From NCBI RefSeq assembly GCF_001044255.1, contig NZ_JYNX01000059.1:1-64000 (forward strand): DNA of 64,000 nt. The letters are read 5' to 3'. The position numbers and the translations under genes were made by a program. Shown one piece after another: positions 24,014 through 41,635 of this stretch; position 1 is the first letter of the stretch; each line of letters opens with the position of its first letter. The notes below the pieces were generated by a model. The model made no database searches, was not told where the DNA came from, and saw only the letters and a list, made by a program, of their open reading frames with translations. Source of the stretch: Mycolicibacterium chubuense. Its GTDB lineage: Bacteria; Actinomycetota; Actinomycetes; Mycobacteriales; Mycobacteriaceae.

Positions 24014-24661
24014 ATGAAACAGGTACTGAGCGATCTCTACGAAACCCGCACCGATTCACCGTTTCCGGGGCTGACCACCCACGCCTACCTCTGGACGCCG
24101 GCGAACATCATGTTCTACTCGCCGGCCACCGACGCCGACTTCGACGGACTCGACCGCCTCGGCGGCGTCGCCCACCACTACCTCAGCCACCGCGACGAGG
24201 CCGGGCCCATGCTCCGCCGGGTCGCCGAGCGCTTCGGGTCCACCCTGCATGCACCCGCAGGGGATCTCGCCGACATCAGCAGGCACGCCCATGTCGACGT
24301 CCCGGTGACGGGCCGCTACACCGACGTGAACGGCATCGAGATCATCCCGACGCCGGGCCATTCCCCGGGCAGCGTCTGCTACCTGGTGCCCGGCGCCGAG
24401 GGCCGCTACCTGTTCACCGGCGACACGCTGGTGCGCACCGCAGAGGGCGGCTGGTGGGCCGGCTACATCGACAGCTTCCACACGTCCAGCGATGCGGAGA
24501 AGATCGCCGAGAGCCTGCGGACACTCGCCGAGCTCTCCCCGGATGTGGTGATCTCCAGCGCTTTTCAGGGTGACTCCGCGGTGCACCGCATCGAACCGGC
24601 ACACTGGCGGGGTCACATCGCGCACGCGATCGCGGGCCTTCCTACTGCTGCGCGAACATAG
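24014..24661 (+). CDS. MBL-fold metallo-hydrolase
   Basis: A protein of 215 residues with a metallo-beta-lactamase fold. The first metal motif is degenerate (HHYLSHRDEAG in place of HxHxDH), while the later PTPGHSPGSVCYLV and LFTGDTL carry the usual second histidine and aspartate. The loss of part of the first motif leaves catalytic ability uncertain. The start ATG at 24014 is preceded by GAAGG. The last 20 bases overlap the convergent diol dehydratase reactivase gene. Confidence 0.75.
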   Translation: MKQVLSDLYETRTDSPFPGLTTHAYLWTPANIMFYSPATDADFDGLDRLGGVAHHYLSHRDEAGPMLRRVAERFGSTLHAPAGDLADISRHAHVDVPVTGRYTDVNGIEIIPTPGHSPGSVCYLVPGAEGRYLFTGDTLVRTAEGGWWAGYIDSFHTSSDAEKIAESLRTLAELSPDVVISSAFQGDSAVHRIEPAHWRGHIAHAIAGLPTAART

Positions 24662-26342
24662 CGACCAACCCGCGCGCCACCGCGAACCGCGGCCCGTGCA
24701 CGCCGTCGATGTCGGCGCGCCCGACCACCACCCGCAGCGGCCGCAGCGCCTCGGAGACCGTGCGCATCAACTCGTCGTCCAGCGCGCCACCGCCTGCCAG
24801 CACCAACGCATTCGGCGGATCGTCGAACGCGGTGAGACACCGGGCGATGTTCGCCGCGACGGTCTCCTGCTTGATCGCCAACCGCAGGCTGCGCCACTCC
24901 TCGGCGGCGAGCCTGTTCGAGAACGGCACCAGGCCCGCACTGCCGCGCGTGCACAGCCGGCCGATCGCGTCCGACGCCGCCGGCGAGTTCAGGAACACCC
25001 GCCGCCCGTCCTCCTCGTGCGCGACGTGCGGGCCCTCCACCCGCACCGCCGGTGTGCGTTTCACCGTCTCGGCCAGCGCGTGGGGGATGCCGAGCACACG
25101 GGCGATCGCGACGGTGATCGACTCCCCCGCCCCTGCCGCGACGACGGTCTTCTCGTCGCCGATGAGATCGACGGTGCCACCGCCGATGTCGCACACCATC
25201 GATCCGGGTGGGAAGCCCGGAGTGGTGCGGGCACCCCACGCCGCGGCCAGCGGTTCGGAACTCAGCGTGCGGGCGGGCCGACCCGTCAACTCACTCAGCA
25301 TGTCCGCCGCGTCGGCCGCCTCCTCGGCGGCCAGCAACGCGACCACGGTGCCCTGCGCGTCGGCGACTCCGCGCCGCAGCCACGCGCCGCTGTCGATGGC
25401 CGCTAGGTTCGTGAAGAACGCGTCGTGCACGGCCAGGCCCTGTGCCGCGGTCGGAACCGACTGCAGCCGCACGTGTTCGACGATGCCGGGCGCCGAGCGG
25501 CGCAGCACCGCGTGCGCCTGGGCGGGCGAGTACCGCACCGTCCGGCCGTCGGCGCGGATGTCGACGTGATCGCCGTCGGCATCGGGCGGGGCGGGCGCGT
25601 CGGTGCGGGGGGTCACCGCGATCGCCGCCGAGTCGGCCAGTTCCCGACAGAAGTCGGCGACCTCGTGCAGGCTGTCGACGGGCAGGCGCAGTGCCGCGGA
25701 GAGCGCGATCGGATCGGCCATCGCGCGGTAGGCGCGGCCCTCCTCGACCACTTCCACCGCGATCAGCGCACCCGGTGCCAGACCCTCGACGTCCGCCTCG
25801 TCGACCACCGGCACGTCGATCGGAATCCGGTTACGGATCAACACCGCATCGTCCTGCGCGGCGACCACACCGACGATCCGCCAACCCCGGTAGACCGCCG
25901 CGCCGATCTCCCGGGCCGCCACCTCGAAGTCCGTGACCGCGTCGACGGACACGACCACGGGCTCCCCGGTCGGAGAGGTCGCCAGATCGGTCAGACGCAC
26001 GTGGCGCCCGACCCCGTGACCGGCGCCGGCCGGCGTGCTGGCATCCGGTCGGCGCAGGCTGCGCACCGGGGACGACGGGGAGTAGGCCGGCGGAATCGGC
26101 GCGGTCGCGGTGTCCACGGGCCGCAGCGCCGACAACAGCAACTCGTCAGCCCGAAGACCGGCGTCGACCTCGATCCTGTGCAGCAGTGCGGCCGCGCCGT
26201 GCAGCGACTCCGGGCTGCCCTTGCGGCCCCGGGTGGGCGCCTGCCCGTGCGCGACGGTGCTGACGACGCCGCCGTCCAACCGCGCCAGCAGGATCTCGGT
26301 GGTGTGGTTACCGACGTCGATGCCGGCGACCGTGCGGATCAA
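24642..26342 (-). CDS. Diol/glycerol dehydratase reactivase, large (ATPase) subunit
   Basis: A protein of 566 residues related to DdrA/PduG. The actin/Hsp70-like ATPase start VAGIDVGNHTTEILLARL and the phosphate-2 type loop MVCDIGGGTVDLIG are clear, as is the adenosine-type segment NALVLAGGGALDDEL. The protein releases damaged cobalamin from inactivated B12-dependent diol dehydratase, using ATP. No small reactivase subunit (DdrB/PduH) gene is seen nearby. The gene overlaps the dehydratase small subunit gene by four bases. Confidence 0.9.
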   Translation of the reverse strand: MIRTVAGIDVGNHTTEILLARLDGGVVSTVAHGQAPTRGRKGSPESLHGAAALLHRIEVDAGLRADELLLSALRPVDTATAPIPPAYSPSSPVRSLRRPDASTPAGAGHGVGRHVRLTDLATSPTGEPVVVSVDAVTDFEVAAREIGAAVYRGWRIVGVVAAQDDAVLIRNRIPIDVPVVDEADVEGLAPGALIAVEVVEEGRAYRAMADPIALSAALRLPVDSLHEVADFCRELADSAAIAVTPRTDAPAPPDADGDHVDIRADGRTVRYSPAQAHAVLRRSAPGIVEHVRLQSVPTAAQGLAVHDAFFTNLAAIDSGAWLRRGVADAQGTVVALLAAEEAADAADMLSELTGRPARTLSSEPLAAAWGARTTPGFPPGSMVCDIGGGTVDLIGDEKTVVAAGAGESITVAIARVLGIPHALAETVKRTPAVRVEGPHVAHEEDGRRVFLNSPAASDAIGRLCTRGSAGLVPFSNRLAAEEWRSLRLAIKQETVAANIARCLTAFDDPPNALVLAGGGALDDELMRTVSEALRPLRVVVGRADIDGVHGPRFAVARGLVAMFAQQ

Positions 26343-26668
26343 CGCAGCAGGCCGCGGCGGGCGTAGGCGGCGGCGGCCTGCTCCACCAGGGCCGCGCAGC
26401 GCGGTGCACCGCGGTTGATCAGCGAGGTGCGCAGCTCCTCGAGTTCGGCGGCGGTCGACCGGTGGGGACGCAGCGCCTCGTAGAGCGCCATCACCTCTTC
26501 GTCGTCGATCGTCGCGAGTTCGGCTGCGCGCCGGAAGTTCTCGGCGAGCTGCGGGTTACCGCCCCGCTCAGCGACGGCGGCCTGCCGATCCAGCGCGGCC
26601 GGGTCCATCCGCAGATCGGCCAGCCCCAGCTTGCCGTCGACGGCGTTGTCCACGGTGATGTCGGTCAT
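26339..26668 (-). CDS. Diol/glycerol dehydratase small subunit (PduE-like)
   Basis: A protein of 109 residues. The segment NPQLAENFRRAAELATIDDEEVMALYEALRPHR is the recognisable core of the gamma subunit of B12-dependent diol dehydratase. It is shorter than the enteric PduE (about 170 residues) and has no obvious amphipathic targeting helix at its N-terminus. Four-base overlaps with the genes on both sides show tight translational coupling. Confidence 0.88.
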   Translation of the reverse strand: MTDITVDNAVDGKLGLADLRMDPAALDRQAAVAERGGNPQLAENFRRAAELATIDDEEVMALYEALRPHRSTAAELEELRTSLINRGAPRCAALVEQAAAAYARRGLLR

Positions 26669-28905
26669 GGCAGCTCCACCTTCACCGTCACCGGGGCCTC
26701 ACCGGGTTCGCACGCCGCCCGTTCCAGGGCCACCAGCGCGACGGCGCGGGCGTGGTACCGGGCTGAGATCGACTCGTCGGTGCCTCCGGTGAAGATCGGC
26801 ACCGGGGCCATCCCCTTGGCGTGCCGGGCCGCGTTCTTGCCCAGCTCGCGATACTGCGCGGCGGTGAGCAGCGGCGCCACACTGAACAACTCCAGGTTCG
26901 CCAGGGGGGCCAGATCACGGCGGTGGATCAGCGCGGTGCCTTTGCCCTGCAGCCCGATTCCGATGCCCGAGCCGGACAGTCGCGCGGCGGTCAGCCCGAT
27001 CATGCCGACATCGATCGTGGAGCGCACCCGCACCGTGCGCGCGACGCAGCCCTCCTCTTCCAGGCCCGCCGAGATCTGCCGCAGCACCTCGCCGATGGTC
27101 AGCCCGCACAGGCTCAGCCACACGCTGCGGCCCCAGGCCGGCGACAGCCCGATGCACACCTCGCGGGGATCGCTGCCCTGCCGGGCCGGTTCGACGTCGG
27201 TCACGACGAGATGACCGCGGTGCTCCTCCTGATCGGCGGTCAACTCGGCGCTGCTGCGCGCCTGCCGGATCCCGTCGATCTCGGTGCGCCGGGCGTCGGT
27301 CAGCGCGTAACCCGTTGCCGGACCGCTGTAGTCGTTGGGATCGGTGAGCTTGGAAAGCACCTGGAACTGCTCGTCGAAGATGGCCGAGGTCTGCAACTGG
27401 TCGCCCTTGAGCCGTTCCCGGGTCAGGGTCGTGATCGCCTCGGCCTCGTCGGTGAAGCCGGTGCGGTGCAGCGAGGCGATGACGTCGAACACCGTCAACT
27501 GCTTGGCCTCGATGGACGCCGCGGCCTCCGCCACCATCTTGGGGTGGCCCGCAGGCAGGTCGCGAGAACCGTTGGCCGCCACCACCTGCTCCACCCGCGC
27601 GTCGTCGTAGTCGGCCAGGCCGAGGTCGCGGTACACCGCCTGAACCGCCTTGGCGGCGCGGCGGCGCACCGCCTCGAGATGGTCCGGGGAGACGGTGCGC
27701 AGGCCGCCGTCGGCGCCCCAGTCACGCTGCAGTACCAGGAAGTCGTCCATGTCGTCGGAGTTGAAGTTCGACAGCGCGAAGGCGTTGTCGTAGCGCGGTA
27801 TCGACCCGAAGCCCGAGAAGATGAAGTCCGCACCGGCCAGCAGCACCGGCAAGGTGTGGGCACTGCGGCGGATGTCCGATTCGGAGATCAGGTTGTCGTT
27901 GCCCGCGCACGACTCCAAGTCGCGCATCATCACCATCAGGTTCTCGGCGAGCAGTTCCTTCATGCCCTCGGGCACTGAAGCGACCACACCGACCCCGTCG
28001 ATGCCGCCGTTCTGCACGCCCTGCGATCCCAGCGCCCGGGCCAGCGACACACACCGGGACTCCAGATAGAGGATCGAGCACTGCTCCGCGGCGCCCATCA
28101 GCACCTCCGCCCCGCCGCCGCTGGTGACCCGCATCTTCAGGCCCCGTGACGCGTACGCCGAGGTGAGAATCGCCTTGCTGAACGGGGTGTCGTCGCCGTC
28201 GACGAACACCTGCTCGGTGCCATAGATCGAGATGGTCTCGGCGTAGCTGGTCAGCCCGCGCAGACCCAGGCGCAACTCGAGGGCCTCCTCGATCGAGCAC
28301 TGCGCCATCGCGCCCGGGGTGCCGACCTGCGAGCCGATCAGCAGGGCGACCGCGTTCGACGGGGCGTCGCCGAGGACCGGCACCGTCGTCTCGACCTCGC
28401 GGAAACCGTAGGCGACAGCGCTGGCCGCGTCGGCGGCGATCAGCAGCGGGTCGTCGAGCTGGTTGGTGACGTGGGCCTGGTTGCTCGGGGTCCGGCGGGC
28501 GCGCATCTTGGCCATCGCCATCTGCATCTCGACCGGCGACATCAGGGCGATCACCCGGGCCAGCTTGGCGGGGGTGGTGCCGCCGATCAGCCGCACCACC
28601 TCCGCCCGCGGGACGTTGATGTCCACCGCCATCCGTGCCAGCGTCACGTCGTCGAGGGCCATCGCCTCCTCGGCGACCGCGAGATCGATGCCGTAGCGGG
28701 CGATGAACTCGTCGATCACGTCGAACTCGCCGGCGCCTTTGCCGTCGAGCTCGACGACCTCGCCCCCGCGTGTCACCAGCGAGGGCAAGGGGTCCTGGGG
28801 GCTGCTCATCGCGACCAGACCGAGCCGGGCGTCCGGGACGCTGAACCCGTCGAGGTTGACCGGCTTCGAGTTCAGTACCCGGAATCGGCCCAGCTCGTCT
28901 GCCAC
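26665..28905 (-). CDS. B12-dependent diol/glycerol dehydratase, fused large and medium subunits
   Basis: A protein of about 746 residues. Residues 1 to about 560 match the large subunit (PduC), and residues from about 562 match the medium subunit (PduD). The enzyme uses adenosylcobalamin to turn 1,2-propanediol into propionaldehyde, or glycerol into 3-hydroxypropionaldehyde. Recognisable large-subunit blocks are GYGI-like FIARYGIDLAVAEEAMA, MSPVEMQMAMAKMRARRTPSNQAHVTN and SGGGAEVLMG. The start GTG at 28905 has a perfect AGGAGG five bases upstream. The medium part lacks the long N-terminal tail that targets enteric PduD to microcompartments. Such fusions are known in mycobacteria. Confidence 0.93.
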   Translation of the reverse strand: MADELGRFRVLNSKPVNLDGFSVPDARLGLVAMSSPQDPLPSLVTRGGEVVELDGKGAGEFDVIDEFIARYGIDLAVAEEAMALDDVTLARMAVDINVPRAEVVRLIGGTTPAKLARVIALMSPVEMQMAMAKMRARRTPSNQAHVTNQLDDPLLIAADAASAVAYGFREVETTVPVLGDAPSNAVALLIGSQVGTPGAMAQCSIEEALELRLGLRGLTSYAETISIYGTEQVFVDGDDTPFSKAILTSAYASRGLKMRVTSGGGAEVLMGAAEQCSILYLESRCVSLARALGSQGVQNGGIDGVGVVASVPEGMKELLAENLMVMMRDLESCAGNDNLISESDIRRSAHTLPVLLAGADFIFSGFGSIPRYDNAFALSNFNSDDMDDFLVLQRDWGADGGLRTVSPDHLEAVRRRAAKAVQAVYRDLGLADYDDARVEQVVAANGSRDLPAGHPKMVAEAAASIEAKQLTVFDVIASLHRTGFTDEAEAITTLTRERLKGDQLQTSAIFDEQFQVLSKLTDPNDYSGPATGYALTDARRTEIDGIRQARSSAELTADQEEHRGHLVVTDVEPARQGSDPREVCIGLSPAWGRSVWLSLCGLTIGEVLRQISAGLEEEGCVARTVRVRSTIDVGMIGLTAARLSGSGIGIGLQGKGTALIHRRDLAPLANLELFSVAPLLTAAQYRELGKNAARHAKGMAPVPIFTGGTDESISARYHARAVALVALERAACEPGEAPVTVKVELP

Positions 28906-28928
28906 GAAGGCCTCCTGTTCGCGGACTG

Positions 28929-30467
28929 TCAGTCCCGTACTTCGTTGTCCTCGTATACGATCCGGCCGATCAGCTCGTACCGGCCCGGGTCCCTGAACTT
29001 GAAGTACAGCGCCATGGCCGCCCCGAGCGCGAACAGTCCGACCACGATCCATGGTGTCAGCTTGAACAGCAACGTGCCGGATGCGGCGCCGGCCGCCGCA
29101 TCCTTGTGTTCCCACAGCAGGTACACGACGTAGAGCATGCCGATCCCGCCGAGCAGCGGAGCCAGGAACGTCTTGAACCAGTGCGCGCTGGAGGGGTGGT
29201 TCTTGTGGAAGTGGAAGTACGCGACCACCGAGAAGGCGCACAGCGACTGAACGATCAGGATCGCCATCGTGCCCAGGATCGCGAGCAGTGTGTACATGTG
29301 GATGTAGGGATCCATGCCGGCGACGAAGAACGCCAGGATCAGCACCAGCGTGATCCCCGTCTGCACGAACGACGCGATGTGCGGCGATCCGTGGTGCTTG
29401 TGAGTGGCGCCCAGCGTCTTCTGCAGGCCTTCGTGCAGCCCTTCACGGCCCATGGCGTACAGGTAGCGCGACGCGCAGTTGTGGAACGCCATGCCGCACG
29501 CGAACGATCCGGTCACCAGCAGGATGTTGAACAGCGTGATGGCCCACTCGCCGTAGGTGCTGCGCACCGGGCCGAAGAAGATCTCGGAGCTGGTGTCGGC
29601 GCTCTGGGCGAGCTCGATCGACTTCTGCGGGCCACTGCCGGCGATCGCCATCCAGGACACGAAGATGTAGAAGATGCCGACGCCGAGCACCGCGATCATG
29701 GTGGCGCGCGGGATGATCTTCTTCGGATCCTTGGACTCCTCGCCGTACATCGCGGTCGACTCGAAGCCCACCCACGACCAGAACGCGAAGAACAGGCCGA
29801 GTCCGGCACTGGCGCCGGCGATCGCGGCGGGCTGGAAGGCGCCGACCGGGTTGAGGATCTGCCCGACCGCGAAACCGTCGGGGCCGCCGCCCTTCACGGC
29901 GACGGCGAGCGCACCGAGGGAGAGCATGACGATCTCGGTGATCAGGAACACGCCGAGCACCTTGGCCGTCAGGTTGACGTCGAAGTAGGTCAGGATGCAG
30001 TTCAGCGTCAGCATCAGCAGGGCCGGGATCAGCCAGTGGATCTGGATGCCGAACTGACTGTCGAACAGGTTCTGGAAGAAGAACGCGAAGATGCCGATCA
30101 GGGAACCCTCGAACACGACGTAGGCCATCGTGATGATCAGACCGCTGGCCATTCCGATGACGCGGCCCAGGCCGTGGGAGATGTAGCCGTAGAACGCGCC
30201 GGTCGACGTGATGTGCTTGGCCATCGTCGCGTAGCCGATCGCGAACAGGCCCAGCACGATCGTGGCGACCAGATAGCCGGCCGGTGCGTGGGCACCGTTG
30301 CCGAAGCCGACGGCGATCGGCACGTTGCCGACCATCGCGGTGATCGGCGCGGCGGTCGCGACCGCCATGAAGATCACCCCGAAGGTGCCGACGGCGTTGC
30401 GCTTGAGCCGTTGCACGGAGTCGGTGGTGGTCGGGCGCGGGGCCACGGTTGCAGAGTCTTCTGTCAT
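28929..30467 (-). CDS. APC-superfamily amino acid/amine permease
   Basis: A protein of 512 residues with twelve or so hydrophobic helices. The family blocks are AVGTFGVIFMAVATAAPITAMVGNVPIA, ITSTGAFYGYISHGLGRVIGMASG and FWSWVGFESTAMYGEESKDPKKIIPRATM. It diverges from the microcompartment operon and is followed 23 bases later by the dehydratase. It therefore probably imports an amine or amino alcohol used by this region, such as 1-amino-2-propanol; that is inference from position. The ribosome site GGAAGG lies ahead of the ATG at 30467. Confidence 0.85.
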   Translation of the reverse strand: MTEDSATVAPRPTTTDSVQRLKRNAVGTFGVIFMAVATAAPITAMVGNVPIAVGFGNGAHAPAGYLVATIVLGLFAIGYATMAKHITSTGAFYGYISHGLGRVIGMASGLIITMAYVVFEGSLIGIFAFFFQNLFDSQFGIQIHWLIPALLMLTLNCILTYFDVNLTAKVLGVFLITEIVMLSLGALAVAVKGGGPDGFAVGQILNPVGAFQPAAIAGASAGLGLFFAFWSWVGFESTAMYGEESKDPKKIIPRATMIAVLGVGIFYIFVSWMAIAGSGPQKSIELAQSADTSSEIFFGPVRSTYGEWAITLFNILLVTGSFACGMAFHNCASRYLYAMGREGLHEGLQKTLGATHKHHGSPHIASFVQTGITLVLILAFFVAGMDPYIHMYTLLAILGTMAILIVQSLCAFSVVAYFHFHKNHPSSAHWFKTFLAPLLGGIGMLYVVYLLWEHKDAAAGAASGTLLFKLTPWIVVGLFALGAAMALYFKFRDPGRYELIGRIVYEDNEVRD

Positions 30468-30517
30468 TGACGAACACCTTCCGGATGAAGGAGGACCAGC
30501 TCACGGGGGCCGGTCAC

Positions 30518-30590
30518 TGTGGTATAGACCACAATGGGTAAACCTCAGTCATATTGGCACTACCAATAGGTCTGCGCAAGACCCAATTGG
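30518..30590. promoter_or_regulatory. Cluster of palindromic operator-like sites in the divergent promoter region
   Basis: TGTGGTATAGACCACA (30518-30533) has perfect 6-base arms and contains GTATAGAC, fitting the GTNTANAC core known for GntR-type operators. ATTGGCACTACCAAT (30553-30567) has perfect 5-base arms. GGTCTGCGCAAGACC (30569-30583) has perfect 5-base arms, and CCAATTGG (30583-30590) is a perfect palindrome. TGG/CCA half-sites recur and are shared with the site before the GntR gene (37634-37646). The cluster sits between the divergent permease/dehydratase and microcompartment operons. Confidence 0.6.
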
Positions 30591-30596
30591 TCGCTG

Positions 30597-30625
30597 TTGA
30601 CATAAATGGTCCTACCCTTTAACTT
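30597..30625 (+). promoter_or_regulatory. SigA-type promoter of the microcompartment operon
   Basis: A perfect -35 TTGACA (30597-30602), a 17-base spacer, and -10 TAACTT (30620-30625) form a standard housekeeping promoter, rare in this clarity in mycobacteria. The spacer contains TGGTCCTACC, another match to the TGGT-N3-ACC operator pattern, so a bound repressor would block it. Transcription would begin near 30632, which supports the GTG at 30663 as the first gene's start. Confidence 0.7.
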
Positions 30626-30662
30626 TTGGTCACACCCGGCCGAGCTCACGACAGGGAGTCCC

Positions 30663-31937
30663 GTGTACGACTACGGCACGTTCTCGTTCGATTCCAAGGC
30701 ACAGGTGCTCGAACGCGCCAAGGAGTACTGGAACCCGGACAAGACGCAGTTCTGGACCGACTCCGGAGTCGACCTGGTGATCGACCGCCGGCAGGACTAT
30801 TTCCTGTGGGACATGAGCGGGCGCCGGCTGATCGACATGCACCTCAACGGCGGGACCTACAACCTCGGCCACCGCAATCCCGAACTGGTGCAGGCGATCA
30901 CCGAAGGCATGCAGTACTTCGACGTCGGCAACCACCACTTCCCCTCGGTCGCCCGCACCGCACTGGCGCAGAAGCTCATCGAGTCCGCCCCCGCGTCGCT
31001 GAGCAAGGTGGCCTTCGGGTCCGGCGGCGGCGAGGCGATCGACATCGCGCTCAAGAGCGCCCGCCACGCCATGCAGCGCCGCAAGATCGTCTCGATCGTC
31101 AAGGCCTACCACGGGCACACCGGCCTGGCCGTCGCCACCGGCGACGACCGATTCGCCAAATTGTTCCTGGCCGACCGGCCCGACGAGTTCGTCCAGGTGC
31201 CGTTCGGCGACACGGACGCGATGGAGCAGGCGCTGCGCGGTCGCGACGTCGCGGCGGTGATCATGGAGACGATCCCGGCCACCTACGGATTCCCCCTTCC
31301 ACCTGTGGGTTACCTCGAGGCGGTCAAGGATCTCTGCGAGCGCTACGACGCGCTGTACATCGCCGACGAGGTGCAGACCGGCCTGATGCGCACCGGTGAG
31401 ATGTGGGCGATCACCAAGCACGGCATCGAACCCGACATCATGGTCACCGGCAAGGGACTCTCCGGCGGCATGTACCCGATCACCGCGGCCCTGCTCAGCG
31501 ACCGCGCCGCGCAGTGGCTCGACCAGGACGGATTCGGCCACATCTCCACCTTCGGCGGCGCCGAGCTCGGCTGCGTCGCCGCCATCAAGACGTTGGAGAT
31601 CACCAGCAGGCCCGAGGTCCGCTCGTCGGTGCACTACATCGCCGACATCTTCGCCCGCGGCCTGTCCCGCATCCAGGCCGACCACCCCGAGTGGTTCGTC
31701 GGCATCCGCCAGAACGGGGTGGTGATCGGTCTGGAGTTCGATCATCCCGAGGGCGCGAAGTTCGTGATGCGCGAGCTCTACCAGAACGGCGTGTGGGCGA
31801 TCTTCTCGACCCTGGATCCCCGTGTCCTGCAATTCAAACCGGGCCTGCTGCTCAACCGTGACCTCTGCGAAGACGTGCTCGACCGCGTCGAGGTGGCCGT
31901 GGGACGGGCGAAGCTGGCCGCGACCGGACGGAGATAG
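30663..31937 (+). CDS. Class III aminotransferase-fold PLP enzyme, likely amino-propanol phosphate phospho-lyase
   Basis: A protein of 424 residues of the class III aminotransferase family. Visible features are GSGGGEAIDIALKSARHA and KAYHGHTGLA (PLP phosphate region), YIADEVQTGLMRTGEMWA (PLP-binding Asp) and TGKGLSGGMYPITA (Schiff-base lysine). In the described mycobacterial aminoacetone microcompartment this gene position is held by the enzyme that removes phosphate and ammonia from phosphorylated 1-amino-2-propanol to give propionaldehyde. I chose the GTG at 30663, behind GGGAG. The ATG 57 bases upstream lies inside the promoter. It is the first gene of the operon; two bases separate it from the aldehyde dehydrogenase gene. 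Confidence 0.85.
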   Translation: MYDYGTFSFDSKAQVLERAKEYWNPDKTQFWTDSGVDLVIDRRQDYFLWDMSGRRLIDMHLNGGTYNLGHRNPELVQAITEGMQYFDVGNHHFPSVARTALAQKLIESAPASLSKVAFGSGGGEAIDIALKSARHAMQRRKIVSIVKAYHGHTGLAVATGDDRFAKLFLADRPDEFVQVPFGDTDAMEQALRGRDVAAVIMETIPATYGFPLPPVGYLEAVKDLCERYDALYIADEVQTGLMRTGEMWAITKHGIEPDIMVTGKGLSGGMYPITAALLSDRAAQWLDQDGFGHISTFGGAELGCVAAIKTLEITSRPEVRSSVHYIADIFARGLSRIQADHPEWFVGIRQNGVVIGLEFDHPEGAKFVMRELYQNGVWAIFSTLDPRVLQFKPGLLLNRDLCEDVLDRVEVAVGRAKLAATGRR

Positions 31938-31939
31938 CA

Positions 31940-33493
31940 GTGACCAGCAAAAGTGCGGTGCCCCACGCCGGCCAGCTGCTCGAGCGGGCGCGCTTCGCCG
32001 CCGCAGCCTACGGCGAGTACGACCAGGCCGCCGTTGCGCGCATCGTCGACGCAGTCGCCGAGGCCGGCCACCGCAACGCCGAACGCTTCGCCGCGGCCGC
32101 CGTCGCCGAGACGCAGATGGGTGTGGTCGAGGACAAGATCGTCAAGAACCGCGCCTGCTCGCGCGGCATCGTCGACTTCTACCGGGGCCAGGACTACGTA
32201 ACGCCCCGGATCGACACCGCCCGCAAGATCGTCGAGATCCCCCGCCCGGCGGGTGTGGTGCTGGCGCTGTGCCCCACCACCAATCCCGTTGCGACGGTGT
32301 ACTTCAAGGTGATCCTCGCGCTGATGACCCGAAACGCCGTGGTGGTCGCCCCTCACCCCAGGGCGCGTCAGTGCTCAGCCGACGCGGCCCGGGTGCTCGC
32401 CGATGCGGCCGTCGCCGCCGGCGCGCCCGACGGCATCGTGTCGGTGATCGAGGATCCCTCGCTGCCGCTCCTCGAGGCGATGATGTCCGACGAGCGCACC
32501 GACGTCATCGTCGCCACCGGCGGCACCGCGGTGGTACGGGCCGCCTACTCCTCGGGCAACCCGGCCCTCGGCGTCGGACCAGGCAACGTTCCCGTCTTCG
32601 TCGACGCGAGTGCCGACGTCGACGCCGCCGCCCGCCGGATCGTCGGCAGCAAGGCCTTCGACAATTCCGTGCTGTGCACCAACGAGTCGGTGCTGATCGC
32701 CGAGGATGCCATCGCCGCGAAGCTCAGCTCGGCGCTCACCCGTCACGGCGCGCACATCTTGGATGCCGACGCGACGCAACGCCTGCGGGAGTTCATGTTT
32801 CCCGAGGGCCAGCTCAACACCGACGTCGTCGGCCGGGACGCGGCGTGGATCGCCGAGCGCATCGGTGTGCGGATCACTCCCAAGACCCGGGTACTCATCG
32901 CCCCGTTCACCGACGTCGTCGGCGAGGAGGTGCTGACTCACGAGAAGCTCAGCCCGGTGCTGGGGATGACCACCGTCGCCGACGCGCCGCGCGGCATCCG
33001 CGCCGCCCGCGCGGTGGTGCGCATCGCCGGGGCCGGCCACTCGGCGGCCATCCACAGCGAGGACGCCTCGGTGATCACCGAGTTCGCCGCCACCGTGCCG
33101 GTGCTGCGCGTGTCGGTCAACGTCGGGAACAGCACCGGCAGTTCGGGTCTGGAGACGAACCTCGCTCCGTCGATGACGATCGGCACCGGCTTCGTCGGGC
33201 GCAGTTCGATCGGGGAGAACCTGCAGCCCGAGAACCTGATGAACTGGACGCGGATCGCCTACAACGCCGACGCCGGCGTGACGATGCCGAATTTCGCCGG
33301 ACTGTCGCCGTGGCGTTCACCCGACGGGCCGGTGCCCGCCTACCCGCGGGCGTCCAACGACTCCGCGGCCGCGCCTCCGGTGCCCGCCGGCAGACCCACT
33401 GCTCGCCGTGCCGCCGATCCGGGCATCGAGGCGCTGCGCGCCGAGCTGCGTGCGCTGGTGGCCGAAGAACTCGCTCAACTGATCAGGCGGTGA
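31940..33493 (+). CDS. CoA-acylating aldehyde dehydrogenase with C-terminal microcompartment-targeting helix
   Basis: A protein of 517 residues. It resembles PduP/EutE: NAD-binding VVLALCPTTNPVATVYFKV, FVDASADVDAAARRIVGSKAFDNSVLC with catalytic Cys246, and GTGFVGRSSIGENLQPENL. It would oxidise propionaldehyde to propionyl-CoA inside the shell. After residue 460 comes a Pro/Ala/Arg linker. The last 22 residues or so (from GIEALRAELRALV) form an amphipathic helix, the pattern of encapsulation peptides that bind shell proteins. In other PduP enzymes this peptide is N-terminal. The GTG start follows GGAG. Confidence 0.9.
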   Translation: MTSKSAVPHAGQLLERARFAAAAYGEYDQAAVARIVDAVAEAGHRNAERFAAAAVAETQMGVVEDKIVKNRACSRGIVDFYRGQDYVTPRIDTARKIVEIPRPAGVVLALCPTTNPVATVYFKVILALMTRNAVVVAPHPRARQCSADAARVLADAAVAAGAPDGIVSVIEDPSLPLLEAMMSDERTDVIVATGGTAVVRAAYSSGNPALGVGPGNVPVFVDASADVDAAARRIVGSKAFDNSVLCTNESVLIAEDAIAAKLSSALTRHGAHILDADATQRLREFMFPEGQLNTDVVGRDAAWIAERIGVRITPKTRVLIAPFTDVVGEEVLTHEKLSPVLGMTTVADAPRGIRAARAVVRIAGAGHSAAIHSEDASVITEFAATVPVLRVSVNVGNSTGSSGLETNLAPSMTIGTGFVGRSSIGENLQPENLMNWTRIAYNADAGVTMPNFAGLSPWRSPDGPVPAYPRASNDSAAAPPVPAGRPTARRAADPGIEALRAELRALVAEELAQLIRR

Positions 33494-33496
33494 CCC

Positions 33497-34102
33497 GTGG
33501 CTGAACTGCGTTCGTTCATCTTCATCGATCGGCTCCAGCCGCAGACGATGTCGTATCTGGGCACCTGGATCAAGGGCGCCCTGCCGCGCGCGGGTGTCGC
33601 CGCACAGATCATCGAGGTGGCCCCCGGTCTGGACATCGAGGGCGTCACCGACGTCGCGGTCAAGCACGCCGAGGTCCAGGCCGGCATTCTGGTGGTGGAG
33701 CGCCAGTTCGGCTACCTGGAGTTCCACGGTGACACCGACGCGGTGCAGGCCGCCGCCGACGCCGCGCTGGCCGAACTCGACCGGGACTCCGGCTCGGCGA
33801 CCCCGCCGCAGATCCTGGCCTCGCGCATCATCTCCAGCATCGACGCCCAGCACGCATTCCTGATCAATCGCAACAAGATGGGTTCGATGGTGCTGGCCGG
33901 CGAGACCCTCTACGTCCTCGAGATGTCCCCCGCGTCCTACGCGATCCTCGCGACCAACGAGGCCGAGAAGGCCGCCGACATCAAGGTCGTCGACTTCCGG
34001 ATGATCGGCGCGACCGGCCGGGTGTACCTGTCCGGCAGCGAATCCGACATCCGCCAGGCCGCCTCCGCGGCCGAGGAGGCCCTGGCCCGGAGCGTGCCGT
34101 GA
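33497..34102 (+). CDS. BMC-T shell protein (tandem BMC domains), first
   Basis: A protein of 201 residues made of two bacterial microcompartment domains in tandem (about residues 1-95 and 100-200). It reads FIFIDRLQPQTMSYLGTW and, in the second half, ISSIDAQHAFLINRNKMGSMVLAGETLYVLEMSPASYA. Three copies would make a pseudohexameric tile with a central pore that may pass larger metabolites. The GTG start is three bases after the aldehyde dehydrogenase stop, and the stop overlaps the next gene. A second BMC-T protein with the same domain plan is at 35168-35821. Confidence 0.9.
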   Translation: MAELRSFIFIDRLQPQTMSYLGTWIKGALPRAGVAAQIIEVAPGLDIEGVTDVAVKHAEVQAGILVVERQFGYLEFHGDTDAVQAAADAALAELDRDSGSATPPQILASRIISSIDAQHAFLINRNKMGSMVLAGETLYVLEMSPASYAILATNEAEKAADIKVVDFRMIGATGRVYLSGSESDIRQAASAAEEALARSVP

Positions 34103-34587
34103 GCATCGACCGCGACGCGCTGCGACAACTCGTCCGTGAGGTCGTCCGCGAGGCCGTGGGCGACCTCTCCAACCCGGCCCCGGTCGCGACGGCTCCCCCT
34201 TCGCCGGCTCCCCCTCCGCCGGCCCCGGTGGGCCCCGTCGCGACCGGGCCGCTGGCCGCCGACGAGAGGTCGCGGGTCGACACCGTGCGGATCGCCTCCG
34301 ACCGGGATCTCGACGTATTCGTACGAAACCTGCTGCGGCTGTTCGAGAATCCGAAGACCCGTGCCGACCTGCGGCAGGGCCGGCTGTCGTTCCGGCTCGC
34401 CGGCACCGGCCGGCCGGGGCCCGGCAGTAGCCGACGCATCGAACGCGGCGCGGTCACCGAACGGCAGATCGCCGACATCGCCGCGTCCGGCGCGACCCTG
34501 GTGCTCGGCCCCCGGGCCGTGCTGACCCCCCTGGCCCGCGAGCGCGCCCGCGCACTGGGCGTGACGATCCACAAGGAGCGCACATGA
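34099..34587 (+). CDS. PduM-like microcompartment-associated protein
   Basis: A protein of 162 residues. An N-terminal amphipathic helix ([20 protein letters not shown]) looks like an encapsulation peptide. A Pro/Ala-rich linker of about 45 residues follows, then a folded region ([32 protein letters not shown]) ending in [21 protein letters not shown]. The arrangement resembles PduM and similar proteins of unknown role in shell assembly. It overlaps both neighbours by four bases (GTGA at the start, ATGA at the end). The name is tentative. Confidence 0.65.
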
Positions 34588-34829
34588 TTCGTGGCACGGT
34601 CGTCGGCCAGGTCTGGTCGACCCGCCGTATCGACGGCATCCCGGCCGGGGCCTTCCTGGAAGTGGAGGTCGACGGCTCCGGGGCCCGGCTCGTCGCATTC
34701 GACGTGCTGGGCAGCGGAGTCGGCGAGCACGTTCTCGTCACTCAGGGCTCCGTGGCGGCGAGCTGGTTCACCGGCACCCCGCCGCCTGTCGACGCACTGA
34801 TCATCGGCTCCATCGACGCAAGCGGATAG
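34584..34829 (+). CDS. BMC-P shell protein (EutN/CcmL pentamer)
   Basis: A protein of 81 residues of the EutN/CcmL family, whose pentamers close the corners of the shell. The family pattern is plain: [24 protein letters not shown] at the start, [20 protein letters not shown] in the middle (the G-x-G-E-x-V core), and the ending [12 protein letters not shown]. It is coupled to the upstream gene by an ATGA overlap. A gap of 47 bases follows before BMC-H. Confidence 0.93.
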
Positions 34830-34876
34830 CCGCCCGGCATCCGGCCCGACAATTCAACCGACACAAAGGAGAAATC

Positions 34877-35158
34877 ATGGCCAGCAACGCGATCGGAATG
34901 ATCGAGACCAAGGGCTACGTCGCGGCGCTCGCCGCTGCCGACGCGATGGTCAAGGCCGCCAACGTGACGATCACCGATCGCCAGCAGGTCGGTGACGGTC
35001 TGGTGGCCGTCATCGTCACCGGTGAGGTCGGCGCCGTCAAGGCCGCGACCGAGGCGGGCGCCGAATCCGCCTCGCAGGTCGGAGAACTCATCAGCGTGCA
35101 CGTCATCCCGCGCCCGCACAGCGAGCTCGGCGCGCACTTCTCCGTCTCCGCCCAGTAG
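34877..35158 (+). CDS. BMC-H shell protein (hexamer)
   Basis: A protein of 93 residues with the canonical single BMC domain: [26 protein letters not shown] and [26 protein letters not shown], ending [11 protein letters not shown]. Hexamers of it would make most shell facets. A strong ribosome site (AAAGGAGAAATC) sits before the ATG, stronger than for the other genes. This fits the need for many copies of the main tile. Confidence 0.95.
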
Positions 35159-35167
35159 TCTCGCGAG

Positions 35168-35821
35168 ATGGCCGTCACGGACGCACCGACACGGACCGAC
35201 ATCCGCGTCTACCTGCTCGTCGAGGACCTGCAGCAGCAGTTCGCCGCCTACCTCGGCACGCCGACGCGGGCACGCGGCTATCCGCCGTACGCCGGGGAGC
35301 ACGCCCTCATCGTCGAGGTGTCCCCGGCGCTGGCGATCGAGCGGGTCATCGACCTGGCGCTGCGGGAGGTTCCGGGTATCCAGCCCGGAATCCTTTACGT
35401 GGAGCGCCAGTTCGGGGTGCTCGAGATCCATTCCAGCGATCTCGAGGACGTGCGACGGGCCGGAGAGGCGATCCTGAACGGCACGAAGAACTCCGCGGCC
35501 GACCAACTGCGACCGCGAGTGCTCTACCACGACGTCATCGCTGACATCACCGATCAGCACGCGGTGATCCTCAATCGCAACCGGCAGGCGTCGATGGTGC
35601 TGCCCGGCCAGTCGCTGCTGGTGTACGAGATGACGCCCGCACTGTTCGCGGCTGTGGCGGCCAACGAGGCCGAGCGCGCCGCGCCGGGGCTGACGCTGGT
35701 CGACGTACAGATGATCGGCGCCGCGGGCCGCCTCTACATCAGCGGCAGCACCGCCGATGTGGTGACCGCACGTGATGCGATCACCACGGTGCTGGAGTCG
35801 ATCGAGGGGCGGGACCATTGA
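35168..35821 (+). CDS. BMC-T shell protein (tandem BMC domains), second
   Basis: A protein of 217 residues with two BMC domains in tandem, related to the protein at 33497-34102 (compare VERQFGVLEIHSSD with VERQFGYLEFHGDT). A short extra N-terminal tail (AVTDAPTRTD) is present. The second half reads HAVILNRNRQASMVLPGQSLLVYEMTPALFA. Two BMC-T, one BMC-H and one BMC-P are the known set for the Rhodococcus/Mycobacterium microcompartment. Its last four bases overlap the start of the kinase gene. Confidence 0.92.
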   Translation: MAVTDAPTRTDIRVYLLVEDLQQQFAAYLGTPTRARGYPPYAGEHALIVEVSPALAIERVIDLALREVPGIQPGILYVERQFGVLEIHSSDLEDVRRAGEAILNGTKNSAADQLRPRVLYHDVIADITDQHAVILNRNRQASMVLPGQSLLVYEMTPALFAAVAANEAERAAPGLTLVDVQMIGAAGRLYISGSTADVVTARDAITTVLESIEGRDH

Positions 35822-36813
35822 GCGGCGACGTCGGCGACGACCGCGCGGTGGCGGAGAAGGCGCTCGAGGCGTTCGACCTGCCGCAGGGCTCGGCGCTGCG
35901 ACTGCTCAACCTGTCTGAAAACGCCACCTACGCCGTCGAGGAGCCCGGCTGCGGGCACCGATCCATCCTGCGGGTGCACCGCAAGAACTACCACCGGGTC
36001 GACCAGATCGAGTCGGAACTGATGTGGCTCGACGCGCTGCGCCGCGAGAGCGACATCACCGTGCCGACCGTGATCCCGGCGCACGACGGCCGCCGTGTGG
36101 TCACCGTCCACCACGACGGCGCCGAGCGTCATGTGGTGCACTTCGAGATGGTGCCCGGCGCCGAACCCGACGAGAACACGCTGACGAGCACGGACTTCCA
36201 CACGCTGGGGTCCATCACCGCGGCGCTGCACGACCATGCCCGCAGCTGGCAGCGCCCGCCGACCTTCAGCCGGTTCGCCTGGGACTGGGAACACAGCCTG
36301 GGGACGTCCCCGCGCTGGGGCCGCTGGCGCGACGCGGTCGGCGTCGGCGAGCACGAGGCGGAGGTACTGGGCCGCGCCGAGCAGCTGCTGGCCCGCCGGC
36401 TCGCCGAATACGGCACGGGCAGCAACACCTTCGGGCTGGTTCATGCCGACCTGCGGCTGGCCAACCTGCTGGTCGACGGTGACACCATCACGGTCATCGA
36501 CTTCGACGACTGCGGATTCGGCTGGTATTTCTACGATTTCGGGACGGCGGTGTCGTTCTTCGAGGACCACCCGTCGGTGCCGGAGTGGCAGGACGCCTGG
36601 GCCACGGGTTACCGCACCCGCCGGGAGCTGGCCGCGGCCGACGAGGACATGCTGGCCTCGTTCGTGCTGCTACGCCGGCTGCTGCTGCTGGCGTGGATGG
36701 GGACGCACAGCCATTCCCGGGAATCGCAGGCCATTTCCGTCACCTACGCCGCGGGCAGCTGCACGCTCGCCGAGCGGTACCTGTCCTCCGACGGTCACCT
36801 CCTGACCGCCTGA
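35818..36813 (+). CDS. APH-family kinase, likely 1-amino-2-propanol kinase
   Basis: A protein of 331 residues of the aminoglycoside/choline phosphotransferase fold. Catalytic loop [14 protein letters not shown] (Asp211, Asn216) and metal-binding [10 protein letters not shown] (Asp228) are intact. In the mycobacterial aminoacetone microcompartment the enzyme at this place phosphorylates (S)-1-amino-2-propanol. The start is a TTG at 35818, overlapping the upstream stop (ATTGA), a weak codon that would limit its amount compared with shell proteins. No targeting helix is visible. Confidence 0.85.
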
Positions 36814-36835
36814 ATCATCCACCGAAAGGTTCGTC

Positions 36836-37615
36836 ATGTTCACCTCGCTGCAGGGCCGCTCGGCCATCGTGACCGGCGGCAGCAAGGGCATCGGGCGCGG
36901 GATCGCCGAGACCTTCGCGCGGGCCGGCATCAACGTCGTCATCACAGGGCGCACCGAGTCCGACATCGAGCGCACGGTGGCGGATCTGGCGGGACTGGCC
37001 GGCACCGTGACCGGCGTGGCCGCCGATGTGGCCAGCCCCGAAGACTGCCGGCGCGCGGTGGCCACCGCGACCGAACGCAACGGCGGACTCGACATCGTGT
37101 GTGCCAACGCCGGCATCTTCCCGTCGGCGTCGCTGGCCGACATGACCCCCGAAGACCTCGACCGGGTCCTCGGAACCAACGTCAAAGGCACCTTCTACAT
37201 CGTGCAGGCCGCGATCGACGCGCTGACCGCCAGCGGTCACGGCCGCGTCATCATCACGTCCTCGATCACCGGAACCATCACGGGTTTTCCCGGCTGGTCG
37301 CACTACGGCGCCAGCAAGGCCGCGCAGCTGGGGTTCCTGCGCACCGCGGCGATCGAACTGGCGCGCAAGAAGATCACCGTCAACGCGGTGCTGCCAGGCA
37401 ACATCCTGACCGAGGGGCTCGTCGAGATGGGTGAGCAGTACATGAACCAGATGAAGGCCGCGATCCCCACGGGGACTCTCGGCACCGTCGCCGACGTCGG
37501 CAATGCCGCGCTGTTCTTCGCCACCGATGAAGCCGGCTTCATCACCGGCCAGTCGCTGGTCGTCGACGGCGGCCAGATCCTCCCCGAATCGGCCGAGGCG
37601 CTTGCCGACCTCTGA
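36836..37615 (+). CDS. Short-chain dehydrogenase, likely aminoalcohol (1-amino-2-propanol/aminoacetone) dehydrogenase
   Basis: A protein of 259 residues with a classical SDR plan: cofactor motif GGSKGIG (residues 14-20), NAG at 91-93, catalytic Ser near 142, Tyr157 and Lys161 (YGASK), and the VDGGQ ending. In the described pathway an SDR converts aminoacetone and 1-amino-2-propanol into each other. It is 22 bases after the kinase gene, with GAAAGG as ribosome site. The exact substrate is inferred from context. Confidence 0.85.
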
Positions 37616-37633
37616 CGGATACGTACCCTGAAT

Positions 37634-37646
37634 TTGGTCGTACCAA
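37634..37646. promoter_or_regulatory. Operator-like palindrome before the GntR gene
   Basis: TTGGT-CGT-ACCAA is a perfect 5+5 palindrome, and it matches the half-sites found in the divergent promoter region at 30518-30616. It lies 24 bases before the GntR start codon at 37670, so the regulator probably controls its own gene as well as the operons. Confidence 0.6.
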
Positions 37647-37669
37647 TTGCCACGAGCCCAGGAGGTCGG

Positions 37670-38446
37670 GTGCCCACGCAAACCGAGGACCTGCGGCGCC
37701 GGATCGTGGCCGACATCAACGCCGGCGTCCCCGGCGCCAAGCTGGGTAGCGAGCGGGAACTGGCCGAGCGGTACCGCACCAGCCGCTCGAGCCTGCGCCA
37801 GGTGCTCGCCGCCCTGGAGGAGGCAGGCCTCATCGACCGGGTGATCGGCCGGGCCGGCGGGATCTTCATCAGCCACGCCCAGGTCCAACGCAGCCTCTCT
37901 GACGTCGTCGGGGTGCCCGCGTTCCTGGCCAGCCAGGGCTACGTCGCGGGCACCCGGGTGCTGTCGACCAAGATCGGCGCACCCGACGCCACCACCCAGA
38001 ACGCGCTCGGCCTCGCCGCCGACGACTTCGTCGTCGAGATCCAGCGGGTCCGCCTCGCCGACGGGTCGCCGATCTCGCTGGAACTGGCCCAGTTTCCCGC
38101 CGACGCCTTCCCCGGTCTGCTCGAACAGCAACTCGGCGGCTCGCTCTACGAGATCCTGGAGACGCAGTACGGACTGGTCACCGCACGCGCCGACGAACGC
38201 ATCGAGGCCGTCAACGCGACGCCCGAGGAGGCAACGCTGCTGGGCATCAAACCGAAATCGGCGCTGCTGTTGATCACCCGGGTCACCTACGACCAGCACG
38301 ACACCCCGTGCGAGTTCTCCCGCGACCTGTTCCGCGGCGATCGCACCCGGCTGGCCGTCACCGCCCAGGGCCGCGGAATCGGGGTGGCCGCGTCGGTGGC
38401 GGCGGCCTCGGTGGCGCTGCAGAGTCAGGGGCGGCGGGCGGTCTGA
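37670..38446 (+). CDS. GntR-family (HutC/UTRA type) transcriptional regulator
   Basis: A protein of 258 residues. The N-terminal winged helix reads [32 protein letters not shown], and the C-terminal effector domain is of the UTRA type ([22 protein letters not shown] and [15 protein letters not shown]). It most likely senses an intermediate of the microcompartment pathway and represses the two divergent operons. The GTG at 37670 with GGAGG four bases ahead is preferred. A TTG start at 37634 would place the N-terminus inside the operator. It ends the operon. Confidence 0.88.
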
Positions 38447-38459
38447 GGCGAGTGGATTC

Positions 38460-39344
38460 ATGACGAACCCACCCGGCGCGGGCCGGTTCGCGCCGAGCCC
38501 GTCGGCGGATCTGCACATCGGCAACCTGCGCACCGCGGTGCTGGCCTGGCTGTTCGCCCGCTCGACCGGGCGGCGCTTCCTGATGCGCGTGGAGGACCTC
38601 GACGACCGCACCCACACCGACATCGCCGACCGCCAACTCGCCGACCTGGCCGCACTCGGCGTCACCTGGGACGCGCCGGCCACCCGCCAGACCGAGCATC
38701 CACAGCGCTACGACGCCGTGGTCGACACGCTGGCGCGCCGCGGCCTGCTCTACGAATGCTATTGCACCAGAAAGGATATCGCGCAGGCGCCGCGCGCTCC
38801 CCACGCCCCTGAGGGAGCCTACCCGGGAACGTGCCGCGACCTCTCCGACACCGAGCGTGCACGACGGCGCGCGGAGACGGGCCGCCCGCCGGCCCTGCGG
38901 CTGCGCACCGACACGTCGACCCACACCGTGCGCGACGTGCTGCACGGCGACTACACCGGTCTGGTGGACGACTTCGTGGTGCGCCGCGGCGACGGGGTGC
39001 CGGCCTACAACCTCGCGGTGGTCGTCGACGACGCCGCCTCGGGCATCGACCAGGTGGTGCGCGGCGACGACCTGCTGTCCTCGTCGCCGCGCCAGACACA
39101 CCTCGCACGGCTGCTCGGGCACCCGGAGCCGATCTATGCGCACGTGCCACTGGTCCTCAACGCCGACGGCGCACGGCTGGCCAAGCGGGACGGGGCGGTG
39201 ACCCTCGCCGAGATCGGGGTGGACCGGGCGCTGGCCCAGATCGCGGACTCGCTGGGGTTCTCCGCGCGCACGGTGGCGGGAATGCTGCCGGAATTCGATC
39301 CGGCGCGTCTGCCCCGCGGCCCGTGGGTATACCTGCCCGGGTGA
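38460..39344 (+). CDS. gluQ: Glutamyl-queuosine tRNA(Asp) synthetase
   Basis: A protein of 294 residues resembling the catalytic half of glutamyl-tRNA synthetase, without the anticodon-binding domain. The class I signature is [19 protein letters not shown] (HIGN for HIGH), the zinc site is YECYCTRKD...GTC, and the KMSKS-like loop is LAKRDGA. Enzymes of this size attach glutamate to the queuosine base of tRNA-Asp. The tRNA-guanine transglycosylase that starts queuosine formation is encoded 5 kb away at 44248-45507. It is 13 bases after the GntR stop. Confidence 0.9.
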
Positions 39345-39380
39345 GCAGAACCCTTCTGATCGTCGGCCGGTGTTGCTAGC

Positions 39381-40859: not shown

Positions 40860-41635
40860 CCGAGCAGCCCACCGAGAGCCGGCGCGAGAACCGGATCGTC
40901 GCCGACGGCGTACGCAAGTCCTTCGGGCCGCTCGAGGTGCTCAAGGGCGTCTCGTTCACCGTGCCCCGCGGCTCGGCGACCACGATCATCGGTCCGTCCG
41001 GGTCGGGGAAGACCACGCTGCTGCGGGCACTGAACGCGCTCGACACCCCCGATGCCGGCGTCATCGCGGTCGGTGACGTCGAGATCGACTTCTCCGGCCC
41101 CGTCACCAAGGACCAATTGCGGCGCTACCGGGCCCAGAGCGGTTTCGTGTTCCAGTCGCACAATCTGTTCCCGCACAAGACGGTGCTGCAGAACGTCACC
41201 GAGGGACCGGTGATCGCGCAGAAGCGGCCCCGCGAGGAGGCCGAGGCCGAGGCGGTGCAACTGCTCGAGCAGGTCGGGCTGGCCGACAAGCGGGACCAGT
41301 ACCCGTTCCAGCTGTCCGGCGGCCAGCAGCAGCGCGTCGGCATCGCCCGCGCGCTGGCGATGAAACCGAAGGTGGTGTTGTTCGACGAGCCGACCTCGGC
41401 GCTGGATCCCGAGCTCGTCGGAGAGGTTCTCGCGGTCATCCGCGACCTGGCTGTCGAGGGCTGGACCCTGGTGATCGTCACCCACGAGATCCAATTCGCC
41501 AAGCAGGTTTCCGACCAGGTGCTGTTCACCGACCAGGGTGTGATCCTCGAGCAGGGGCCGCCCGCGGCGGTGATCGGAGATCCGCAGCACGAGCGCACCC
41601 GGCAGTTCCTGCAGAGAATTCTCAACCCGCTGTAG
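40856..41635 (+). CDS. Amino-acid ABC transporter ATP-binding protein
   Basis: A protein of 259 residues. Walker A is GPSGSGKTT, the Q-loop is in [18 protein letters not shown], the ABC signature is LSGGQQQRV, and Walker B is [14 protein letters not shown] followed by the His of VTHEI. It pairs with the fused binding protein/permease just upstream, with a GTGA overlap. Together they form a complete importer of the polar amino acid family. Confidence 0.95.

Follow-up and report, generated by a model that had tools for sequence, protein, structure and literature searches.

We analysed a 64,000-nt stretch of Mycolicibacterium chubuense DNA (the window) in which a coenzyme-B12 diol dehydratase operon lies back-to-back with a bacterial microcompartment (BMC) operon of the Rhodococcus/Mycobacterium microcompartment (RMM) kind. 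Profile searches (Pfam, NCBIfam and PDB) of this 14-gene locus, at 24642-38446, bore out the gene content, order and strands given in a preliminary description. The minus-strand operon runs from a permease through a fused large and medium diol dehydratase subunit and the small subunit to a reactivase; the plus-strand operon comprises a pyridoxal-phosphate (PLP) enzyme, an aldehyde dehydrogenase, BMC-T, a 162-aa protein, BMC-P, BMC-H, a second BMC-T, a kinase, a short-chain dehydrogenase/reductase (SDR) and a GntR regulator. The Pfam matches cited exceed their cut-offs, and many NCBIfam equivalog matches fall below theirs (reactivase, 212 of 400 bits; aldehyde dehydrogenase, 381 of 620). Loci and genomes used for comparison are labelled L and G. 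The features, in order of position, are as follows.

24642..26342, minus strand: diol dehydratase reactivase of the large-subunit type, DDR plus DDR_swiveling (PF08841, 4.6e-65; PF18427, 6.1e-26; PDB 2d0o, 1.3e-53)
26339..26668, minus strand: diol dehydratase small subunit, short form, overlapping each neighbour by 4 nt (NF011974, 1.3e-59, above cut-off)
26665..28905, minus strand: fused large and medium diol dehydratase subunit, 746 aa, GTG start at 28905 (PF02286, 1.1e-235; PF02288, 1.2e-29; aligns to glycerol dehydratase structures)
28929..30467, minus strand: amino-acid-permease family transporter, first gene of the dehydratase operon (PF13520, 4.7e-27)
30468..30662, no strand: divergent promoter region common to both operons (from the sequence)
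30554..30566, no strand: operator-like repeat TTGGCACTACCAA, with a core TGGNNNNACCA conserved in orthologous regions
30606..30616, no strand: degenerate second repeat copy directly 3' of a TTGACA -35-like hexamer (from the sequence; better copies in L114 and L016)
30663..31937, plus strand: class-III aminotransferase-fold PLP enzyme, probable phospho-lyase (PF00202, 5.2e-72; the listed open reading frame (ORF) begins at 30606)
31940..33493, plus strand: CoA-acylating-type aldehyde dehydrogenase, EutE or AdhE N-terminal type (TIGR02518, 8.5e-114, under cut-off)
33497..34102, plus strand: BMC-T shell protein (PDB 5l39, named RMM shell protein MSM0275, 8.4e-103)
34099..34587, plus strand: 162-aa protein with an N-terminal encapsulation-peptide-like helix and a Pro/Ala linker (from the sequence; PduM kinship unproven)
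34584..34829, plus strand: BMC-P, EutN/CcmL (PF03319, 1.6e-18)
34877..35158, plus strand: BMC-H (PF00936, 9.9e-27)
35168..35821, plus strand: second BMC-T (NF053796, 4e-56, under cut-off)
35818..36813, plus strand: APH-family kinase, probable 1-amino-2-propanol kinase (PF01636, 7e-25)
36836..37615, plus strand: SDR, probable 1-amino-2-propanol dehydrogenase (PDB 6ci8, 1.7e-126, and also 6ci9, deposited as 3-oxoacyl-ACP reductase)
37634..37646, no strand: operator-like repeat TTGGTCGTACCAA 5' of gntR (from the sequence)
37670..38446, plus strand: GntR/UTRA regulator (PF07702, 1.4e-43; PF00392, 1e-9; listed ORF begins at 37634)

The preliminary description knew of no report of this joint arrangement, which had in fact been published as RMM2: in the excerpts used here, Axen et al. 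2014 (PMC4207490) define RMM2 as the RMM1 gene set plus diol dehydratase genes on the opposite strand. Both features are present in the window, where an RMM1-like set from permease to GntR adjoins dehydratase genes on the opposite strand, and the locus is an ordinary RMM2. The same excerpts take the opposite strands to mean that the BMC does not use the dehydratase, and add a bifunctional BMC as an alternative. Whereas that argument makes joint use unlikely from strand alone, here one divergent promoter region, with a conserved repeat in it, serves both operons; unlike RMM2 as published, the group also has shell-less relatives. New here are the 23-nt permease-dehydratase spacing, the conserved divergent operator-like repeat, the distribution of tails and the shell-less relatives.

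The RMM1 or aminoacetone microcompartment of M. smegmatis and Rhodococcus has the same PLP enzyme, aldehyde dehydrogenase, two BMC-T, BMC-P, BMC-H, kinase, SDR, GntR regulator and permease, and its solved homologues match the window BMC-T and SDR; as far as the source excerpts describe it, RMM1 differs in having no adjacent dehydratase. RMM2 is also without the hydrolases of RMM1; no hydrolase was found among the 14 locus genes, and beyond them six flanking ORFs were scanned. In the passages considered here, Ravcheev et al. 2019 propose a pathway for an RMM1-like cluster and cite induction by 1-amino-2-propanol, while a 2021 survey relates the proposal that RMM converts aminoacetone to propionyl-CoA. 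The survey also lists Paracoccus yeei TT13, which grows on 1,2-propanediol, as a carrier of RMM2. The TT13 genome paper (PMC5773746) reports that a pdu operon is absent and that propylene glycol is converted to pyruvate, not propionate, so TT13 provides no evidence for use of the dehydratase. The propanediol-utilization (PDU) system of Salmonella resembles the window in combining a B12 diol dehydratase and reactivase with a CoA-acylating aldehyde dehydrogenase and a shell. Its dehydratase subunits carry N-terminal encapsulation peptides, and its locus includes the phosphotransacylase PduL and the alcohol dehydrogenase PduQ. By contrast, the window dehydratase has fused large and medium subunits, is without N-terminal targeting tails as judged by architecture, and lies outside the shell operon; profile searches found no PduL or PduQ family member among the 14 locus genes.

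A comparison of gene neighbourhoods, proposed in the preliminary description, revealed that adjacency of dehydratase and shell is common rather than confined to one genome. A search with the BMC-T protein gave 455 loci; of the 80 best, some on contigs that end too early to tell, 24 have a dehydratase within the flank, 13 of them from Mycobacteriaceae and 11 from elsewhere, including Planosporangium, Nonomuraea, Kineosporia, Microbispora and Microtetraspora. At L066 the dehydratase lies beyond gntR; this contig, binned as Spirochaetaceae, holds an actinobacterial-looking RMM locus, through either transfer or wrong binning. Three distant dehydratase-linked loci have an acetamidase/formamidase-family gene between permease and dehydratase (L162:13004-14023, L078:4497-5504 and L058:2628-3668), where the window leaves no space for one; in L162 this interval also encodes a protein kinase with NHL repeats. 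In a sample of 198 genomes from the genus, with BMC-P (PF03319) standing for the shell and PF02286 for the dehydratase, 38 genomes carried the former and 60 the latter. The dehydratase large subunits fall into three score classes (23, 17 and 49 genomes), several genomes having two or three, and all shell-adjacent copies in the genus belong to class C. Class C, the window's own and the one found in 49 genomes, lies beside the shell in 14 of the 38 shell genomes (13 judged from coordinates, and G019, in which two contig ends each carry part of the locus), elsewhere in 15, and is absent from 9.

Some of these relatives keep the locus without the shell. A close PLP-enzyme homologue occurs in 53 of the 198 genomes, comprising all 38 shell-bearing ones and 15 shell-less ones; G056 was counted as a carrier at 66% identity, and six matches were reported with one internal stop, which in at least L119 and L138 precedes the conserved start. 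No BMC domain was found in any of the 15 shell-less genomes, nor was an orthologous aldehyde dehydrogenase at E <= 1e-30, although two of them hold a 37%-identical AdhE-like protein; 12 of the 15 reach 90% completeness or more with no more than 5% contamination. All 15 have a class C dehydratase, found in 14 next to the PLP gene and on the opposite strand; in 13 of these the permease lies in between. Downstream of the PLP gene, 12 of the 15 have kinase, SDR and GntR, L137 has part of the kinase, and in L100 and G008 the contig breaks off too soon to tell. The PLP-kinase junction is visible in 13 of the 15, and 15-148 bases separate the ends of the PLP and kinase matches in the 19 shell-less loci listed, 13 of which are from the genus sample. 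An order-wide sample of 397 genomes contained 18 PLP carriers, of which 14 were additional. Among these 14, BMC domains were missing in six: two genomes of the genus and four of another family. All six had a dehydratase near by. In the genus sample, the shell was missing only where the dehydratase was linked (15 of 29 versus 0 of 24; Fisher p 2e-5, kinship uncorrected), with G008 counted as linked although short contigs leave its linkage unseen. One open-access library yielded no report of shell-less RMM loci, a weak negative.

Because both enzyme sets persist where the shell is missing, these comparisons suggest that the B12 enzyme is associated with the pathway, not with the shell. Its occurrence follows that of the amino-alcohol module and regulator more closely than that of the shell, even if in 15 shell genomes it lies at another site. 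Separately, G009, G024, G053, G151 and G156 have a solitary class C dehydratase but no shell and no PLP enzyme; these copies group with the linked L121 and L122 in the dehydratase tree, as if the remainder of the locus had been lost.

For the history of the shell cassette, we built trees from loci that had four or more of five core genes as well as a PLP enzyme of at least 75% identity; L010 was left out by hand, and collapse of near-duplicates reduced 79 loci to 69. The shell-less L100, L134 and L137 had too few genes and stand outside the trees, and the five-gene tree left out 24 of the 69 (15 thinned RMM1 relatives and 9 far outgroups). In this tree of permease, PLP, kinase, SDR and GntR genes, 12 shell-less and 11 shell-bearing loci, the window included, form one clade (100/100). 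A single shell-less clade was rejected by the five genes (p 8e-5) and by the flanks, whether kinase, SDR and GntR (p 3e-4) or permease and dehydratase genes (p 1e-7). With the PLP gene alone, a single origin of the shell-less loci of mycobacteria was not rejected (p 0.62). In the five-gene tree, starred branches require two or more changes of shell state, and in a quick tree that includes the order-wide loci they require four or more. In another quick tree, the shell genes of the 11 shell-bearing loci of the mixed clade form one clade; loss would fit this shell-gene tree better than regain, a choice that change counts cannot decide.

Locus L159 offers the clearest view of exchange between alleles. 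Shell-bearing L069 or L128 have the closest counterparts (90-97%) of its fused dehydratase, permease, reactivase, SDR, GntR and flanking genes, and the closest matches to its kinase (88%) likewise come from shell-bearing loci. For its PLP gene (91%) and PLP-kinase junction, however, the closest counterparts are those of shell-less L114/L116. The small subunit is also nearest to L116 (86%), which goes against a simple recombination picture. A shell-less allele may thus have spread by recombination among mycobacteria, with a separate case in another family. Several deletions within mycobacteria are possible as well, and unproven because the PLP gene next to the junction does not reject one origin. 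On balance, we somewhat favour the view that RMM2 is a shell-optional island, in which the cassette of aldehyde dehydrogenase and five shell-region genes has been cleanly removed more than once in two actinobacterial families, the shell-less allele also spreading by homologous recombination between mycobacterial loci, most clearly at L159.

The two operons also appear to be tied together by their control. The dehydratase genes are very probably carried on the permease message, because only 23 nt separate the permease stop codon from the dehydratase GTG and two 4-nt gene overlaps follow. The core TGGNNNNACCA occurs in 58 of 68 orthologous divergent regions, compared with 0.013 per region in single-base shuffles, and it is found in loci with a shell and no dehydratase (32 of 39), with both (16 of 18) and without a shell (10 of 11). 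Raw pattern frequency is at the level of chance: the bare pattern occurs 5 times across the window versus 5.46 expected, and a strict 13-mer pattern occurs 4 times in the 5.9-Mb genome, two of them in the locus, with 4 occurrences of a reversed control as well. The operator argument therefore rests on conservation and on position and clustering. In a forward-strand scan, at least one repeat was present, in the promoter or 5' of gntR, in 17 of 20 selected linked or RMM1 loci, and 18 lone class C loci had none at the operon and one distant match. The HutC-type pattern GT-N3-TA-N3-AC, considered as an alternative operator, matched 0 of 68 regions. Because the conserved repeat of the divergent promoter recurs 5' of gntR, one regulator probably serves both operons, which makes likely the shared regulator that had been suggested at the outset.

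Regular order and a common promoter also bear on whether the dehydratase operon has no functional tie to the genes around it and is a movable unit of three genes often found beside the permease, a reading that we consider quite unlikely. Class C does occur without PLP and permease genes in 18 loci, the four scanned lone loci have unrelated neighbours (PE-PPE, a penicillin-binding protein, a porin and a wax ester synthase), and linked and lone copies intermingle in the dehydratase tree. Yet the linked copies of Mycobacteriaceae keep one order and orientation, behind the permease except in L094, linked copies share the repeat-bearing promoter, and a similar layout recurs in other families.

Protein termini offer a different line of evidence, on which products might enter the shell. 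In 28 of 30 chosen loci, the aldehyde dehydrogenase has a C-terminal linker followed by a conserved helix (ELRALVVEELAQLIKR and variants), and a helix and linker resembling this tail open the window 162-aa protein. In L144 and L056 the C-terminal peptide was not seen, possibly through a frame difference or a sequencing error. By tail-plus-linker architecture, no encapsulation-peptide-like tail was found on the window dehydratase subunits, reactivase, kinase or SDR; the small subunit is without its N-terminal part, its Pfam alignment beginning only at profile position 25, and the N-terminus of the medium subunit is fused to the large subunit. Architecture was used because amphipathic-moment scoring did not separate peptides from protein interiors (PduP reference 0.279, interior median 0.372) and was dropped. 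Termini do not change with shell state among the rows listed of the relatives' alignments, which cover part of the dehydratase N-termini. The PLP enzyme has a basic tail at its C-terminus that is not the same in the shell-bearing and the shell-less rows listed; we do not claim it as a targeting signal, as it adjoins the next gene and may reflect that gene's ribosome-binding site.

Such termini speak to the option, raised in the cited part of Axen et al. 2014 (PMC4207490), of a bifunctional shell in which the dehydratase is cargo and two signature enzymes make propionaldehyde inside one RMM2 compartment. We regard this as unlikely. It would account for a divergent promoter and operator-like repeat common to both operons and for a dehydratase near shell genes in 24 of the 80 best loci, 11 of them outside Mycobacteriaceae; it is at odds with dehydratase subunits that have no encapsulation-peptide-like tail, a truncated small-subunit N-terminus and a fused medium-subunit N-terminus, and with a dehydratase that persists with the pathway where the shell is gone. 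The original proposal of two substrates passing through one shell is weakened by the missing tail and by dehydratases lying near amino-alcohol genes in 20 shell-less loci, whereas its observation that two aldehyde-forming modules adjoin holds in many species.

Regarding substrate, profile and structure matches indicate a coenzyme-B12 diol/glycerol dehydratase with large, medium and small subunits plus reactivase. Aligned to a Klebsiella-type glycerol dehydratase structure, the window dehydratase keeps the residues that we take to bind substrate and metal in the Klebsiella enzymes. That the enzyme acts chiefly on another substrate, such as glycerol, ethylene glycol or an amino alcohol, seems very improbable: family matching, which hit glycerol and diol dehydratases alike, leaves room for it, as does the amino-acid-permease family transporter in the operon, while the unchanged ligands count against it, though they say nothing against glycerol.

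We therefore lean, with some reserve, towards a co-regulated cytosolic dehydratase that feeds the same aldehyde pool as the amino-alcohol pathway, the shell being optional. GntR would bind TTGGYNNTACCAA-type sites both in the divergent promoter and ahead of gntR, an amino alcohol would relieve this binding, and both operons would thereby be switched on together. The permease would import the amino alcohol, which the SDR, kinase and PLP enzyme would convert to propionaldehyde, in part as published proposals have it; the aldehyde dehydrogenase, retained inside the shell through its C-terminal peptide, would then make propionyl-CoA. The dehydratase, probably cytosolic, would turn 1,2-propanediol into propionaldehyde for the same pool. 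It would travel with the amino-alcohol module and regulator, with aldehyde dehydrogenase and shell forming a separable downstream cassette that is absent in relatives; the fate of the aldehyde in shell-less species is a part of the account that we infer.

Several observations weigh against this co-regulated, shell-optional account. Linkage is not obligatory: 15 of 29 shell-bearing class C genomes carry class C away from the shell locus, 13 of them seen without PLP and permease genes and two (G128 and G193) assigned by coordinates only. Class C co-occurs with the PLP enzyme in 44 of 49 genomes, a figure confounded by kinship, as the two other classes are enriched too, with 18 of 23 and 13 of 17. 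The shell-less L094 (G159) has no permease, its dehydratase lying about 220 bases from the PLP gene, and the four shell-less loci of the other family have about 3.9 kb between permease and dehydratase, with two other genes in this interval in L162. The repeat is absent from 10 of the 68 regions, 8 of these outside Mycobacteriaceae. Finally, the dehydratase could enter the shell by piggy-backing.

Several gene assignments in the window needed refinement. The fused dehydratase starts at GTG 28905, not at 29241. The PLP enzyme probably starts at GTG 30663, since the conserved alignment begins there and ATG 30606 sits in the promoter; 30660 was ruled out, having no start codon. The GntR regulator probably starts at GTG 37670. 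Genome-wide, the large- and medium-subunit families gave one match each, both being the fused gene; as the small reactivase subunit presumably belongs to the medium-subunit family, this search found none in the genome. Kinase and phospho-lyase activities are probable assignments by family membership alone, the phospho-lyase role being suggested by the kinase gene near by, and the top PDB matches of the PLP enzyme are aminotransferases. We take PDB 6ci8/6ci9, matched by the SDR, to be an M. smegmatis RMM enzyme. The label PduM-like, given earlier to the 162-aa protein, found no significant support: a profile scan was blank, a further scan gave only an unrelated match (E = 0.14), and one of two scanned relatives gave a non-significant PDU_like match (E = 0.15). 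The nearest named genome is that of Mycolicibacterium chlorophenolicum, with proteins 97-100% identical across the locus genes. The region 3' of gntR, at 38460-43022, encodes a GluQRS homologue, an ABC protein that fuses solute-binding and permease parts, and a flavin amine oxidase; the GluQRS and ABC genes are also found 3' of gntR in 11 of 15 shell-less genus loci.

If the shell-optional view of RMM2 is true, the locus is a natural comparison of one pathway with and without its shell. Close relatives form a comparison set that keeps both propionaldehyde-forming modules and the same regulator, with or without a shell, which makes the purpose of a metabolosome shell testable in close relatives. 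Possible shared control of the dehydratase and shell operons, undecided in 2014, is now directly testable.

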